A stretch of DNA of 64,000 bases from Roseibacillus persicicus (GTDB taxonomy: Bacteria; Verrucomicrobiota; Verrucomicrobiia; Verrucomicrobiales; Akkermansiaceae): positions 62,001 to 126,000 of the forward strand of contig NZ_BMXI01000011.1 in the NCBI RefSeq assembly GCF_014651675.1, given 5' to 3'. The notes below the pieces were generated by a model, which searched no databases, was not told where the DNA came from, and saw only the letters and a list, made by a program, of their open reading frames with translations. The position numbers were made by a program, and so were the translations under genes. Of this stretch, positions 26,215 through 32,458 are shown piece after piece (the first letter of the stretch is position 1; each line of letters opens with the position of its first letter).

Positions 26215-28431
26215 CTACTTGGCAATTTCGCGGCGAACACCGTCGATAATCTCCGAGGCCGCGGCGAAGCTAGCAACCTTTTCACCATCTTTTAAAAGCA
26301 CCCCGGCCGAGCCTCCCAAGGGGGAAAGTTCCCGTAGCGAATCGCCTTCGATAGTGACTGCGACGCAATCGAATTCGGCCGTCGCCAGAGGGTTCATCAA
26401 GGTCGCTTTCTCATTGGAAGCCGCGTCTTTGGAAAGGACCAGGACGTAACCATCGAAGTTGTTGATTGCGGCATAGAGGTAGTCGGTGTGGACCACTGGC
26501 AAGAACTTCAGGCTACTGGTCAGGTAGGGAGTGATCTCTTCCAGGACTGGCGCGAGTTTGGTGTGTTCGAATCCCAGGGAGGCCATTCGAGTGAGGACTC
26601 CGTAGGCGGTGCCCCATAGAGATGGACCGAAGATCATGGACTCGCCATGGCTTGGGAAGGTGAGAACTTGCTCGTCGACAGCTCTTTCCAGCAGTCGGTG
26701 TTTTTCGTTGGTAAACTCTTCTAACAGAATGGTGGAAAGCTGGCTCGCGGTTTGCAGGAGATCGGGATTCCAGCTGACCCGATACCATTCCAGAAGGGCG
26801 TCGATAGTCAGGGCGTAATCGGATCCGAAGCCGGGCACCGCTCGATTTCCCTCTTGGCTGGGAATGCGCAGGAGGTGTCCGTCTTCCTGTTGAAAGCGGG
26901 TCAGGATCTCGTTCCCCAGACTCTCGACCGCGGCCAAAGTAGCGGGAGAGGGATTGGAGGACTGAGCGCGCGACAGGGCGGTGAGGAGGCGGGCCTTGGT
27001 GGTTAGAACGGACGTGCCTTCGACAAGGGTGCCATCGCTGGCTTGGAGAATTTCGTTGCGGCGAGCGAGGATTTTATCTTTGGCGCTGGCGAGAAGGGCC
27101 TCGGCTTCTTCCGGGCTGCGGTCGGTGGCCCGGGCGAGTTCTTCGCCGAATTTTTTGAGTCCCAGAGTATTGCGTCGGAAGAACTTTCGGGACGGGTCGT
27201 CGGGATTGGGCACATTGCCGAGGGCCCGTAGTTGGAAGGCGGACTTGGCGATTGCCAGTTCATCTTCGCTTAGGATTTTGGAAAGCTCGTCGATACTCCA
27301 GACATAGCCGAGGTCCTCGGTTTCGCCGGGGCGCACGGCGTAGTTTGAGAGGGGACGGTTGGCCAAGGCGTCGAGGAGATCCCGCACCGCGCGTTCGGTC
27401 GCCGGGGTCTGTGGGCTGCTGGTCATGGCCGATAGCATTTCCGCTTGGGTTTCGAGCTTTTTGCTCAAGGCGGGAATCGCAAAGGTGCGGCTGCTTCGGC
27501 GAACGAAGAAGTAGTTGTCAAGGGGATCGCGAATGGCTGATTGAACGAGGAGTTTGATGGAGTCTCGGGTCGCTTCGGTGGCAGTTTCTCTCAGGCGGGG
27601 AGGGCAGGCCGGATGGTGGGCGATGCGAGCCAAGGTCGTAATCAAATGCCCGGGCGGAATGCCCCCGGTATTGTCGAAGGCTTGATTGAGATTATCGTAG
27701 AGATCACAAAGGGACTGGGCCGCGAGGAAGAGCTCCGAAAGGGTGGCCTGGCTCGCTTGTTCTTCCGCTTCCTCGGTTAAGGTCAATGCCTTGTCGATTC
27801 GATCAAGACGCCCATCATTGTCGTAGCGGCTGTTCTCGATCACGTAGCGGTTGGACTTCTCCCGGATGGCTTGCACCGTGTTCTGGGCATTGCGAAATCC
27901 TAAAAGAAAGTCGTCTCCGCTTCTGGCGTTGATCGGAATCCAAGCGACCGGGTTGCCCTCGTGGCTGAGCCAGAGGAGGTAGGGGAATGAGATGGGGTCC
28001 CGGCGCTCGTTGGAGAGAAGGTAGCAAGCGAGCGTGAGCGAAGGGTCGCTTTCAGAATCAGCGAGAGCAGGCAAATAGTCCTCGTTGATCTCCTGACCGA
28101 ACTTGCTTTCCAATTGGGTGAGCAGAGATTGGGAAAGGGGGTGGACGGTGGAGCCCACGAAGACGAAAATCATCTTTTGCGAGTCGTGGGCTTGTTCGAG
28201 GATGTCGGTGGACCAGGGTTGCCAATTGATCTTGGACGTCGCCTGTTTGCGCAGAAAACTGGTGGGCTCGGTCGCGAGACCGTTGCGGCTCAGCTCGGGG
28301 ACCTTGATGGGTGCGGTTTCGAAGAATTCAGTATTCTCAGGTTCTTCGACGACCTCGGCTTTGTCATTCTCCTTGCAAGCTGATAGACCGATCAAAAGAG
28401 CTATCGAAGGGAGAACAAGGGGAAATTTCAC
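26215..28431 (-). CDS. DUF255/YyaL-like lipoprotein: degenerate thioredoxin domain plus helical barrel
   Basis: 738 residues from GTG 28431, chosen because it opens a lipoprotein signal peptide (lipobox 'LSAC', Cys19); the longer frame to 28596 would cross the divergent ParA start. Residues ~60-190 resemble the thioredoxin-like domain of the Spermatogenesis-associated protein 20/YyaL family ('INWQPWS', 'KMIFVFVGSTVHPLSQSL'), but the usual CxxC is replaced, so redox activity is unlikely. The rest is a (alpha/alpha)6-type helical region ('EDGHLLRIP', 'GFGSDYALTIDALLEWYRV', 'DEQVLTFPSHGESMIFGPS'). The biochemical role of the family is not established. Confidence 0.75.
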   Translation of the reverse strand: MKFPLVLPSIALLIGLSACKENDKAEVVEEPENTEFFETAPIKVPELSRNGLATEPTSFLRKQATSKINWQPWSTDILEQAHDSQKMIFVFVGSTVHPLSQSLLTQLESKFGQEINEDYLPALADSESDPSLTLACYLLSNERRDPISFPYLLWLSHEGNPVAWIPINARSGDDFLLGFRNAQNTVQAIREKSNRYVIENSRYDNDGRLDRIDKALTLTEEAEEQASQATLSELFLAAQSLCDLYDNLNQAFDNTGGIPPGHLITTLARIAHHPACPPRLRETATEATRDSIKLLVQSAIRDPLDNYFFVRRSSRTFAIPALSKKLETQAEMLSAMTSSPQTPATERAVRDLLDALANRPLSNYAVRPGETEDLGYVWSIDELSKILSEDELAIAKSAFQLRALGNVPNPDDPSRKFFRRNTLGLKKFGEELARATDRSPEEAEALLASAKDKILARRNEILQASDGTLVEGTSVLTTKARLLTALSRAQSSNPSPATLAAVESLGNEILTRFQQEDGHLLRIPSQEGNRAVPGFGSDYALTIDALLEWYRVSWNPDLLQTASQLSTILLEEFTNEKHRLLERAVDEQVLTFPSHGESMIFGPSLWGTAYGVLTRMASLGFEHTKLAPVLEEITPYLTSSLKFLPVVHTDYLYAAINNFDGYVLVLSKDAASNEKATLMNPLATAEFDCVAVTIEGDSLRELSPLGGSAGVLLKDGEKVASFAAASEIIDGVRREIAK

Positions 28432-28534
28432 CCTTCTTTGATGACAACTCAGCTCAGGAATGTCAACGGCATCCCGTTGCCCAAGAAAATGCTTTTTAGA
28501 TAGGCCCGGCTGCACAAGTATTCCGTCTAACGAA

Positions 28535-29314
28535 GTGATTACGATAGCTGTATCGAGCCAAAAAGGGGGAGTCGGGAAAACGACCCTCTGCATCAATCTT
28601 GCGCACTCTTTTGCCCGAAACGGGCGAAAGACCTTGTTGGTGGATGCCGATCCCCAGGGGTCGGTCGGGCTGTCTTTGACCCGGCAGTCCCGTGTCCTGC
28701 CCGGGTTCTATGATTTGATGGCTGATCCGGTCTACCCCATCGATCGGTTGATTGTGCCTACCCGGCTGGAGACCCTGAGTTTGGTCGCGGCGGGGCAAAC
28801 CAGCGACTATGAGCTGGGCGGAGGGGAGATGGGTGTCACCCTCCATCGGGTTCGCGAGTTTCTACGCAGTGTGGAGGGCAAGGGCTATGAGGTCTGTATC
28901 GTCGATACCGCGGCTGGTCTCTTTGGCGCGACTGCGGATGTCTTGTCTGCTTCTTCGGCGGTTATCATTCCGCAGCAGGCCGAGCCGCTGGGTATTCGAT
29001 CCGTGCCAAAGCTGATGTCGGTTCTTGCCCGCATGAGGGTGGTCAATCCCGAGTTGTCGGTTTTGGGCCTTTTGCTGACCATGATGCAGCCGGGCTTGGC
29101 TGAGAGTCGCGAGGCTGCTCAGTCCTTGAAGGACATTCTTCCTTCGGAGCTCCTCTTTCAAACCATGATTCCCCGGGATGATCTTTTCATTCGAGCTAGT
29201 GCCCGGGGGCTCCCGGTGGGCGCGATGGAGAACGGAGCGGGAGCGATGGCGGTCTTCGATCGAGTCCGAATGGAGGTGGAGGCTAAGCTAACCGCGATGG
29301 CGCAGAGAAAATGA
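28535..29314 (+). CDS. ParA/MinD-family deviant Walker ATPase
   Basis: 259 residues from GTG 28535, which places the first strand directly before the P-loop. Deviant Walker A KGGVGKTT with the signature first Lys, switch I/A' '[13 protein letters not shown]', and Walker B 'CIVDTAAG'. No N-terminal helix-turn-helix and no ParB gene adjacent, so it is an orphan ParA. Such proteins position plasmids, chemotaxis arrays, carboxysomes or flagella on nucleoid or membrane; no C-terminal MinD-type amphipathic membrane helix is obvious. Its stop codon overlaps by 4 bp the start of the Roadblock-like gene, implying coupled translation and probably a shared function. Confidence 0.9.
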
Positions 29315-30354
29315 GCGATTCGATTTCAGCTTGGGTGGATAAGGACGAGATGCGGCGCTTGGCCGAGTCTCTCTTGAGCCGTCCTTTCGGGCACGAGTTG
29401 GACCGCCTTGAGGTCGATTTTGGCAGTCAGTTCGAGGGCTTTGCCCGCGAGGTGCAGGCCGAGCCTACCCGGGGATCCGCACCAGTGGCTCCTACGGCCT
29501 TGCCACCTGCTCCGGCAGCCTCGCCCGTAGAGACGACTTCCCAAGCTGCTGTTCAACCCGCTTCCGCGCGACCCGTCTTCTCTGAGGCAGAGGTGCCGGC
29601 GGCCTCGCCCAAGGAGGAAGTGCAGGCGGCTCCGAGTTCGCCAGCGGTGGAGGCGTCGTCGACAAATCCTTCGCCGTCCGTGATGCGGTCTGCGGTCCAG
29701 TTTTTGAAAAAAGCTCAGGCGGAAGGTCGGGCCGGGGGAGTGATTCGAAGTGCCCGTCCCACCCCACCGCCATCCGTTTCTCCGGACGCCGGTGATGAGG
29801 CGGTGAGTGTTTCCTCTCCACCCGTTCAGGAAGCCCGGCCGATTCATTCTCCCTTCCGGCGGGTGAGCGACATCGAGAGTAAGGTCGAGGAGGCCCAGGA
29901 GCCCATAGCCGCGCCTTCCCACCCTCCGATCTCGGTCAATAAGCTCAAGCGTCCTCCTGCACCCTCGGGTGACGACCCGATTTTGGCCCGGGTGATTCAA
30001 TTTGGCAAATGGCTGAAGGGGCCGGTGGGAGTCCGTAACTTTTTCGTTTCTAACAGCGAGGGCAAAATTTTGATCGACGAGCTGTCCAACCCGAAATTGA
30101 TCCAAGTGGCCCGCTCGCTGGCAGGGGCTTCCGGCTCCGGTTCGTCCGGGGAGTCTGAGCTAGGGAGTCTGCATGTCCGTATTGGTGAAGACTCGATTCT
30201 GGAGGTCGTTCCGACGCCCTCGCAGTTTGGTATTTTGATCCTTGGTCTGGTGGTTGAGCATCCGCTGCCCGAGGATCTGATTCACGAGATCCGAAAAGGC
30301 CTCGAGGAGGTGGCGAATGCTCGGCTGATTCGAAGCGCGGCCCGCCGTTCTTGA
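29311..30354 (+). CDS. Roadblock/LC7-like protein with long Pro/Ala-rich linker, ParA partner candidate
   Basis: 347 residues. A short N-terminal helical segment (1-55, '[15 protein letters not shown]') is followed by a ~170-residue linker rich in Ala, Pro, Ser and Glu, presumably disordered. The C-terminal ~125 residues ('[21 protein letters not shown]...[15 protein letters not shown]...[19 protein letters not shown]') have the alpha-beta-beta-alpha-beta-beta-beta pattern of Roadblock/LC7 domains. These dimerise and regulate small GTPases such as MglA. No MglA-type GTPase is seen; instead it overlaps a ParA ATPase by 4 bp. The assignment is by pattern and should be tested by profile search. 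Confidence 0.65.
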
Positions 30355-30684
30355 GCCGCTGGTCTCGGGCGAGGTGAATGGCGCTACTGACTTTTCCCGG
30401 AGAGCTAGCGAACTTCGATTGAAGGGGGGCTCAAAACGAGCGTGGCAAATTTTGATAGCGAAAAGTCGGAATATTTATAACTTGATTGATTTCCATTAAA
30501 TTGCAGAAAGTGTTGTTTTGTTGGATGTTAATGTGTCATAAATGTCTATGTCAGTGAGCGTTGCCGCTGGCGTGCAGACTAGGATGAATCGAGGGTTCTC
30601 TTGCTTTTGCCAGTTTTCAAACCTTAGGGGAAGAGAATGGGGATAGGCGGGGCGACTTGGTTTTTCTCAAATCTGAAACCCAAC
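30355..30684. other. intergenic region, no gene recognised
   Basis: About 330 bases with an AT-rich stretch around 30460-30560. An upstream ATG at 30637 is in frame with the next gene but would precede its signal peptide. I see no RNA gene, clear terminator or strong promoter pair. Confidence 0.5.
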
Positions 30685-31212
30685 ATGACCATGCAAAATC
30701 AAGTATCGCATATGATAGCTATTGTGGCTGCCCTTTCTCTGGGTTCTTCAGGGAGTTGGGGGCAGGAAGGCCGGCAGTTGAGCCGGGAGGAACTCTTGGC
30801 GGCCCGGGCGGCTTCTGAAGCTCGTCAGGCCAAGTTGAAGCCCAGCGTGCCCAAGGAAAATAAATCGCATCCCACCCAATCCGGAATCCTGGACCGCTCG
30901 ACCATCATCGTCAGCGAGCGCCATTGGACCTGTGTGCCAAAAGGCGCCGTGTTGTATGCCGCACCCGAGCACAAGAATCGGCTCGGGGCAGAGTCGAAAG
31001 GGACGTATCTCGATTTCAACCGGTTCATCGAGCGCAATCGTGGTTGGTTGGTGACCTATGGAGTTTCACTGCAGCAGGCTCGGGGAAAGTCTCCCATCTC
31101 GGAGGACACTCGGAAGAGCTTTGCCACGTGTGGACGGACCGTTATCTCAGTTTTCAGGGGGGGGCCGATCTCGACCCGGCCCTATCAAGAGGAAGAGGTA
31201 GTCGTTAAATAG
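30685..31212 (+). CDS. Secreted protein of unknown function
   Basis: About 175 residues. The N-terminus has a signal-peptide-like stretch ('IAIVAALSLGSSGSWG'), then a charged helical segment ('SREELLAARAASEARQAKL') and a C-terminal region with 'VPKGAVLYAAPEHKNRL' and 'YLDFNRFIERNRGWLVTY', which might be a small SH3-like or all-beta domain. ATG 30685 is chosen; 30691 and 30712 are also possible. It is 19 bp upstream of another secreted protein, and both read in the same direction as the ParA/Roadblock pair. I do not recognise the family. Confidence 0.65.
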   Translation: MTMQNQVSHMIAIVAALSLGSSGSWGQEGRQLSREELLAARAASEARQAKLKPSVPKENKSHPTQSGILDRSTIIVSERHWTCVPKGAVLYAAPEHKNRLGAESKGTYLDFNRFIERNRGWLVTYGVSLQQARGKSPISEDTRKSFATCGRTVISVFRGGPISTRPYQEEEVVVK

Positions 31213-31231
31213 TCGGAACAGGAACAACACT

Positions 31232-32458
31232 ATGAAAACGAATTGCTTTCGCCTGGTTGCGGGCGGATTTCTCCTGGTTATTCCCGGGTATCTGGGAGCT
31301 CAAGCCGGATACACCAATGTCATTGAGATGGTTGAGCTCAGCACGGACGACAACCCGCCCTTGATTTGGCGGATGCCAGGCACCGTGCCGAGCCAAGGCT
31401 ACGATCATCTCATTGGCGAACCCGTGCCAGAAGGGGGCGCGGTCTTCATTCTGTCAACGATTCAATCCCAGCCTTCTTTTATGGATTGGTATCTCGATCA
31501 AGTTGCGGTCGGGACCTATCTTCCCCGGGCGGAAGTGACGGTGCGAACGCATGATACGGAGTCGACGACGCTCCGAGTGCGTGCGGATCGTCCGATTGAG
31601 TTGGAGGTGACTGTGAGCGGTCTTTTCGAGGAAGGTTCGCTTGAGATCGACCCCTCGGCGGTGCAGTTGGCGGCGCGCGAGGTTCGGCTTCAGCGCTTTT
31701 CCGAAGCGTACCCCGAGCACTCCAATTCTTTACCGGGCAACGAAGTTAGCAGTCCGGCTCATACCGAATTGTCTCTCGTGGGGAATGGGACCTTTCCTTT
31801 GGATGCCGGCGACTTGACCTTCTACTCTACCTTGAGCCCCGACAGGCCGGAAAAGGCGAGAGGGGAAGAGCACTTTGTGGTTCGCTCTCTGGCAGATGCT
31901 GGTTTTGCAGGGGCCGCCCTTGAGGAAGTCGCGGTTCAGGTGTGGCCGGTTTGGGGGTGTAAGATGGAGGGAATGGAGGACCCAACCTTCCTGCCCTACG
32001 AGTTCACTGGAAGTCTGGGCCAACAGGTGGCGCGGCCGGAGGAACCGGTGTATCCAGAGGAGGACTACGCGGGGGCGCCGGACAAGGTGACCTATCAAGG
32101 GGCACCTCCGGAGATCACTTTCTCTTGGTATGATCTTTATCCCTCGACGACTGTCGGAATCATCATCAACGATGCGGCCAAACCGTATCCCTGGGGTGGA
32201 AGTTGGGTTGGTGGAACGAGCAAGGTTTTCAACGAAGACAGTTGCCACGACTACTCGATTACCGTGACCGACTGGGGTGAAATCTTCTCCGGCCCGGGAC
32301 GATATGCGATCTGGATGGTGACCTACACCCCGGGGATCGGTTGGGAAGTCGGAGGGCAGTATGACTCCAACGGCAACCTCACTCAGGGGGGATGGGTGGT
32401 GCCAATTGCCCGTTCAGCCATCGGGGTGAGGGCCTCGATTATGAGCCTTAATGAATGA
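31232..32458 (+). CDS. Secreted protein of unknown function, beta-rich
   Basis: 408 residues with a signal peptide ('LVAGGFLLVIPGYLGAQA'). The first third ('VTVRTHDTESTTLRVRADRPIELEVTVSGLF') looks like immunoglobulin-like beta sandwiches; later parts are rich in Tyr, Trp, Pro and Gly ('SWYDLYPSTTVGIIIND', 'YPWGGSWVGGTS'). Two Cys (one in 'VWGCKM', one in 'EDSCHDY') could pair. No enzymatic motif seen. Probably cotranscribed with the gene before it; converges with a 4-bp gap on the next gene. Confidence 0.65.
   Translation: MKTNCFRLVAGGFLLVIPGYLGAQAGYTNVIEMVELSTDDNPPLIWRMPGTVPSQGYDHLIGEPVPEGGAVFILSTIQSQPSFMDWYLDQVAVGTYLPRAEVTVRTHDTESTTLRVRADRPIELEVTVSGLFEEGSLEIDPSAVQLAAREVRLQRFSEAYPEHSNSLPGNEVSSPAHTELSLVGNGTFPLDAGDLTFYSTLSPDRPEKARGEEHFVVRSLADAGFAGAALEEVAVQVWPVWGCKMEGMEDPTFLPYEFTGSLGQQVARPEEPVYPEEDYAGAPDKVTYQGAPPEITFSWYDLYPSTTVGIIINDAAKPYPWGGSWVGGTSKVFNEDSCHDYSITVTDWGEIFSGPGRYAIWMVTYTPGIGWEVGGQYDSNGNLTQGGWVVPIARSAIGVRASIMSLNE

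Follow-up and report, generated by a model that had tools for sequence, protein, structure and literature searches.

A ParA-type ATPase gene and the adjoining gene of a Roadblock-fold protein: a candidate positioning or polarity module conserved in Verrucomicrobiales

The window, by which we mean the whole 64,000-nucleotide stretch of DNA analysed here, contains a gene for a ParA/MinD-type ATPase overlapping the gene of a second protein, in which a conserved N-terminal motif and helix are joined by a long disordered linker to a C-terminal domain with a predicted Roadblock fold. The two genes recur as neighbours across the order, and the pair can be described as a ParA that has its own partner; as a module it may be of a new class. 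The reading towards which we lean, if only slightly, is that the two genes form a ParA-based module for positioning or polarity, in which the N-terminal helix would engage ParA and the Roadblock domain would engage a cargo or a signal. ParA ATPases and Roadblock/GTPase switches are both principal means by which bacteria organise the interior of their cells, and we know of no system joining a ParA ATPase with a switch of the Roadblock/GTPase type; if the reading is true, the partners of Roadblock proteins would extend from Ras-like GTPases to ParA ATPases. The features of the locus are as follows.

28535..29314, + strand: parA, encoding a ParA/MinD-superfamily ATPase of 259 aa, with a GTG start (open reading frame, Pfam, alignment)
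29311..29314, + strand: ATGA overlap of the parA stop codon and the partner start codon (open reading frames; other loci measured)
29311..30354, + strand: partner protein of 347 aa, with an N-terminal motif and helix, a disordered Pro/Ala linker and a C-terminal Roadblock-fold domain (open reading frame, relatives, AF2 model)
29323..29376, + strand: conserved N-terminal stretch, residues 5-22, with W-V-D at 8-10 and a predicted helix at 11-22; putative ParA contact (alignment, model)
29377..29967, + strand: variable, mostly low-confidence Pro/Ala/Ser linker, residues 23-219 (alignment, model)
29674..29733, + strand: predicted helix within the linker, residues 122-141; many aligned relatives have a comparable stretch (alignment, model)
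29968..30351, + strand: domain of predicted Roadblock/LC7 fold, residues 220-347, helix-strand-strand-helix-strand-strand-strand-helix (AF2, Foldseek, VIA)

The start of parA is the GTG at 28535, coinciding with the onset of the alignable sequence of its homologues (V-I-T-I-A-[VI]). The encoded protein belongs to the deviant Walker A family of ParA/MinD ATPases, having the motif KGGVGKT with its signature lysine and the conserved aspartates of the later motifs; QKGGVGKT, D37, D39 and D124 were invariant in all 33 aligned rows (33 of 40 ParA rows were kept). It matched AAA_31 (E 5.2e-25) and CbiA in Pfam, both over the cut-off, and several ParA/MinD-type models in NCBIfam, all below their cut-offs. 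The closest solved structures by sequence were segregation ParA/Soj proteins, and FleN and BcsQ were also among the ParA-like structures matched, with scores far below those of ParA/Soj. This ATPase had been called an orphan, rightly so in the sense that no ParB lies beside it and that a canonical ParA and a ParB are found elsewhere in the genome. The partner has no ParB_N match. The single ParB_N match of the genome is on another contig than the pair, and the canonical-looking ParA, which adjoins an mreB-like gene, sits in the next score tier (at most 108 bits), apart from the ParA of the window. A scan for consensus promoters and terminators detected no promoter-like site on the + strand upstream of parA.

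The parA and partner reading frames share four nucleotides, as the preliminary description had stated, and these read ATGA. Gene overlap is frequent in the relatives: in all 16 loci measured outside f1, in other families of the order, the partner begins 20-47 nt ahead of the parA end. In f1 itself, where the measured rows were picked with the W motif, 20 of 21 starts fell in a range from 4 nt ahead of the parA end to 79 nt past it, and the other lay 14 nt ahead of it. When read in the other frame, the S-W-I-D codons of many overlapping loci yield the C-terminal L-[LM]-D-stop of ParA. The idea that the W motif is a mere by-product of the overlapping frames was rejected, since the motif is kept in f1 loci that do not have that overlap; hence the overlap of the frames is not, by itself, what maintains the motif.

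The partner as a whole had no match to Pfam or NCBIfam at E<=5. Its full-length model (mean pLDDT 71.5, 30 sequences) contains two helices, at 11-22 and 122-141, besides the Roadblock domain, with the rest of the linker at low confidence; the underlying alignment (A7) comprised 30 of 53 rows. The disordered Pro/Ala linker of about 170 residues, recognised at the outset, corresponds to residues 51-219 (169 aa), which include 31 P and 29 A, and most of which are of low confidence in the AF2 model. The same preliminary description, sound as to the linker and the Roadblock-like domain, had overlooked both the linker helix and the conserved N-terminal motif. The latter, W-[IVLM]-D directly preceding the first helix, with conserved leucines at the helix end, is together with that helix the best-conserved part of the partner outside the Roadblock fold. 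W[IVLM][DEN] occurred within 20 codons after a start codon in 60 of the 64 partners found among the best 79 of at least 418 ParA loci, the exceptions being L130, L139, L141 and L147; this count is free of selection by motif, whereas the 53 of 53 in the aligned rows is circular, those rows having been chosen by it. At the position taken as equivalent to the basic residue of ParB, 36 of the 53 rows have K or R, and the helix is without any K or R in three. Hence the contact with ParA, if real, may work unlike that of ParB.

The C-terminal domain has a Roadblock fold in its predicted structure, with a modest margin over related folds. The last 128 residues were modelled by AF2 from an alignment with 46 relatives (A1; 47 of 52 domain rows used, one relative with a partly masked partner being excluded), giving a mean pLDDT of 87.8, a pTM of 0.82 and the order H-E-E-H-E-E-E-H. 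The leading Foldseek matches in the PDB had probability 1.00; MglB 6hjm (E 1.2e-4) and 1j3w were the best of them, and the others comprised 3t12 (MglB), Asgard Roadblocks, chains of axonemal dynein complexes and subunits of Ragulator. The top VIA-align rows were likewise MglB, Roadblock, dynein LC7 and Ragulator chains, the best being Roadblock3 9jue_B (Z 12.9, rmsd 2.8, 110 aligned), with MglB 3t12_C also high (Z 12.2, rmsd 3.0, 115 aligned); related folds followed near behind, namely a MON1A/CCZ1 chain (Z 10.4), a GAF domain (10.1) and a profilin (10.1).

Sequence models scarcely recognised the same domain. Robl_LC7 was not matched by the window protein at E<=5, and was touched by one of 47 relatives (E 0.0055). 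Comparison of the partner domain with an 11-row Roadblock alignment by hhalign gave probabilities of 5.7% and 2.5%, against 0.7% for a control of the partner with ParA; that alignment (A5) consists of nine rows matching PF03259 and two additions by eye (L147 and L138), several rows being the matched fragment only. A PDB profile search with the partner returned 12 matches up to E 10, of which the best, at E 0.4, was an unrelated zinc-uptake protein, and six were dynein Roadblock chains (E 0.5-1.4). An assignment to Roadblock by sequence alone was therefore rejected, the Pfam, NCBIfam, PDB profile and hhalign results being weak or empty, and the partner is filed as Roadblock/LC7 by fold only. 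The initial proposal of a Roadblock/LC7-like domain is thus upheld by predicted structure (AF2, Foldseek, VIA) and not by sequence profile (Pfam, hhalign).

Robl_LC7 had no match in the window's genome, and was found in five of 59 genomes drawn from the phylum and in none of the eight from the same family. No MglA was detected in this genome by the Arf model, the sole model used, which a divergent small GTPase could escape; the lone Arf match over the cut-off, a 359-aa reading frame, reads as Obg by eye and was discarded as an MglA candidate. MglA-family members have been reported from some Verrucomicrobia genomes in the accessible part of PMC4316618, and the absence is therefore stated for the window's genome only. 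DUF4388 was likewise without a match in this genome at E<=1.

Conservation of the two genes as neighbours, named as a check in the preliminary description, was borne out across the order. Of 94 genomes sampled there (requested completeness >=90%), 63 had the partner domain in an alignment-based search, representing 27 of 28 genera; with a single sequence as query, the partner was found in 39 of 98 relatives. The remaining genus (g3, of the same family as the window's genome) had the domain in none of its 21 genomes of 2.2-3.5 Mb, and accounts for 21 of the 31 sampled genomes without it. A KGGVGKT reading frame adjoins the partner in 29 of 30 partner loci, the window's own included, and in the thirtieth (G014) it was shown by a separate search. 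From the side of the ATPase, this ParA was present at >=122 bits in 46 of 58 genomes, and where a genome had both this ParA and a partner match, the two were adjacent by the coordinates read in 23 of 24 cases, G060 being the exception. Across 40 loci around this ParA, 38 have a partner reading frame (one partly masked); the other two are G002, which lies at a contig end and where partner fragments were matched, and G001, a genome of the same genus as that of the window, which keeps the ParA and has no partner. The ParA of G001 is 72.6% identical to that of the window, compared with 94.9% for G002 and 88.1% for G003. Faster change of ParA after loss of the partner cannot be claimed from these values, as the Colicin_V-like neighbour of G001 has diverged too (52.5% identity to the window's, aroC being 91.4% identical). 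That Colicin_V-like gene directly follows parA in G001.

In the window's order, only the two genes, parA and partner, were seen at the locus. The neighbours that could be named by eye are housekeeping genes, and vary (hisH-, hisB-, ftsH- and aroC-like); no cargo or machine genes were recognised beside the pair in the order's loci. Hence the neighbourhood gives no hint of a cargo.

A scan with the ParA alignment extended the pair to named records, although the 79 loci considered are the best 79 of at least 418 confirmed and thus a biased sample. The labels among these best 79 of at least 418 include Akkermansiaceae, Verrucomicrobiaceae, Haloferula, Rubritalea and Prosthecobacter-labelled MAGs, as well as MAGs of Myxococcota/Polyangia, Acidobacteriota and Gemmatimonadetes; the labels are those of the records, the majority of them MAGs, in which binning errors may occur. 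The pair is carried, for example, in the records of Haloferula luteola and of Rubritalea marina. A reading frame with the partner domain lay just downstream of parA at E<=1e-3 in 64 of the 79 loci (best 79 of at least 418). The 15 without one are seven from Gemmatimonadetes, where a related ParA has no such partner; two near contig ends (L136 and L144); L111, where the partner domain is present in a broken frame; L128; and four Verrucomicrobial MAG loci (L082, L094, L097 and L109), where no partner was found beside ParA. In L128, a GAF-domain protein (2023-2874; PF01590, E 2e-14) stands behind the same kind of ParA, replacing the Roadblock partner. In four of the Gemmatimonadetes MAG loci (L143, L146, L148 and L149), the gene of the related ParA shares 4-8 nt with that of a protein of 255-281 aa, which has a lipoprotein-like start by eye and, in the two tested, no Pfam match; the pairing of a cytoplasmic ATPase with an exported protein is odd.

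Five loci labelled Byssovorax, Myxococcales or Polyangia (L129, L130, L132, L133) or Acidobacteriota (L137) have three extra genes after parA and the partner. Their products are a Roadblock-like protein of ~182 aa, one of ~417 aa whose V4R match is sub-threshold, and one of ~104 aa. The ~182-aa protein was compared with Roadblock by hhalign at 68% over 49 columns. The models of this extended operon were built from L129, L133 and L137, where matches are so by construction, L130 and L132 being independent; similarly, the occurrence of the partner domain in 11 of 11 genomes of L126, L129-L133, L137-L139, L141 and L147 is by construction. DUF4388 adjoins the pair over the Pfam cut-off in L133 and L131 and below it in L141, and Pfam found none in the L137 protein; our DUF4388 model, from L133 and L129, includes a TPR part, so that other matches to it may be TPR, and the TPR model came from L133 and L130. 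Upstream in L141 there is also a canonical Robl_LC7 protein (E 2.4e-12). The L130 row, being out of frame, spoiled one alignment (A3) and was excluded from another (A6). The pair is rare in the phylum of the Polyangia MAG L133, with the partner domain in two of 57 genomes, L133's own included.

These data suggest how the two proteins could work together, although contact between ParA and partner, an effect on the ATPase, dimerisation of the partner, cargo and positioning are all things we infer. ParA would dimerise on ATP and bind a surface, either the nucleoid or the membrane, with the partner as its dedicated adaptor and regulator. The conserved W-[IVLM]-D helix would touch the ParA dimer and tune ATP hydrolysis in the manner of ParB's N-terminal peptide, and the long flexible linker would give the partner reach. 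At the C terminus the Roadblock domain, which is probably dimeric, would carry a cargo or receive a signal, such that a Roadblock protein would here serve a ParA in place of a Ras-like GTPase; a polar or mid-cell envelope machine as the cargo would be a guess. The GAF-domain protein of L128 fits an adaptor built as peptide, linker and binding domain.

Several known systems share parts of this arrangement. PomXYZ, McdAB, ParC-ParP and PpfA-TlpT are ParA-like positioning systems, each combining a stand-alone ParA with a dedicated adaptor, and the present pair would resemble them if the conserved gene beside ParA (64 of 79 loci, the best 79 of at least 418) encodes an adaptor; to our knowledge, no Roadblock domain occurs in their adaptors. 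MglA/MglB of Myxococcus and Thermus is the likeness on the other side, since MglB chains lead the Foldseek matches of the partner's C-terminal domain and also rank high in VIA. However, the neighbouring NTPase is here a ParA/MinD ATPase rather than a Ras-like GTPase, the partner has an added motif helix and a long linker, and no MglA was found in the genome by the Arf model. The Cvn/mfp conservons of Actinomycetota, as far as the accessible parts of the sources describe them, also place a Roadblock protein and an NTPase in a conserved operon, but their NTPase is a small Ras-like GTPase, accompanied by a histidine-kinase-like protein. ParABS is approached in that ParA is nearest to Soj/ParA among solved structures, and in that the partner, like ParB, has a conserved N-terminal peptide; the accessible part of PMC12462528 describes the ParB motif as binding the ParA dimer interface and helping to trigger hydrolysis. 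The partner nevertheless has no ParB_N match, and a canonical ParA and ParB are present elsewhere in the genome. A published account also lists further cargoes of ParA-type ATPases.

The pair might instead constitute a polarity or signalling switch rather than a means of cargo transport, the Roadblock domain acting on ParA as MglB does on MglA, in the role of a nucleotide-cycle regulator, with DUF4388 and V4R-like inputs in Myxococcota and Acidobacteriota. We regard this as unlikely. MglB contacts its GTPase through the Roadblock domain itself, whereas the strongest conservation of the partner outside its fold is in the N-terminal helix; only two genes were seen in the window's order, the window's genome has no DUF4388 match, and the V4R match is below the Pfam cut-off. 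What speaks for a switch is the operon of L129, L130, L132, L133 and L137, with its second Roadblock-like, V4R-like and ~104-aa proteins (three of these loci having built the models), and DUF4388 over the Pfam cut-off beside the pair in L133 and L131. In addition, a regulatory role towards NTPases has been predicted for Roadblock proteins (Koonin and Aravind 2000, as cited in PMC4316618).

The remaining alternatives have less to recommend them. ParA could be an anti-activator or assembly factor like FlhG/FleN or BcsQ, regulating the assembly of one envelope machine with the partner as its recruiting subunit. A distribution that is wide in the order and absent from one genus would suit a dispensable machine, and the solved structures matched include FleN and BcsQ; with no machine genes beside the pair in the order's loci, and much higher scores for ParA/Soj, we consider it improbable. 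The same closeness to ParA/Soj would favour a second DNA-segregation system, with the partner as a ParB analogue and DNA as cargo, but this is distinctly improbable where the partner matches neither ParB_N nor any other Pfam or NCBIfam model at E<=5 and a canonical ParA and a ParB_N protein are already encoded in the genome. Finally, the two genes could be co-transcribed without a joint function, their adjacency being inherited and the proteins working apart, and some genomes do keep the ParA without an adjoining partner (G001 and four MAG loci). However, adjacency in records of at least three labelled phyla, together with repeated gene overlap, would be hard to keep without coupling, making this explanation very improbable.

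The two-gene positioning or polarity module with an N-terminal contact remains our preferred reading of the pair. The preliminary description had proposed a positioning or polarity module different from MglA/MglB, and this is supported in part: the pair is conserved as neighbours, and no MglA was found in the genome by the Arf model; its function is something we infer. Only tentatively would we go further, to a distinct spatial-organisation module joining a Roadblock protein to a ParA, order-wide in Verrucomicrobiales and extended in Myxococcota and Acidobacteriota by another Roadblock-like protein, a V4R-like one and, partly, DUF4388, as a polarity or positioning parallel to MglA/MglB. Among the titles and abstract openings listed, a scope outside which most subscription journals fall, no description of a ParA-Roadblock pair was found, and in PMC12288465 both terms appear in the reference list only. 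With its partner domain in 27 of 28 sampled genera, the pair offers a direct handle on the setting of position or poles in an order whose cell biology has been little studied.

Some further genes around the pair deserve mention. Between the partner and the Colicin_V-like gene of the window, at 30637-32458 on the + strand, lie genes for proteins of 191 and 408 aa, which appear exported by eye and have no Pfam match over the cut-off. In one genome, two tandem ParA-family genes lie upstream of the partner (L054, G062:C11:71223-72825). On the other side of the window's parA, at 26218-28443 on the - strand, a divergent gene encodes a 742-aa protein, lipoprotein-like by eye, with a thioredoxin-type DUF255 domain (PF03190, E 1.1e-8), and members of its family are found upstream of parA in 17 of the 40 loci.
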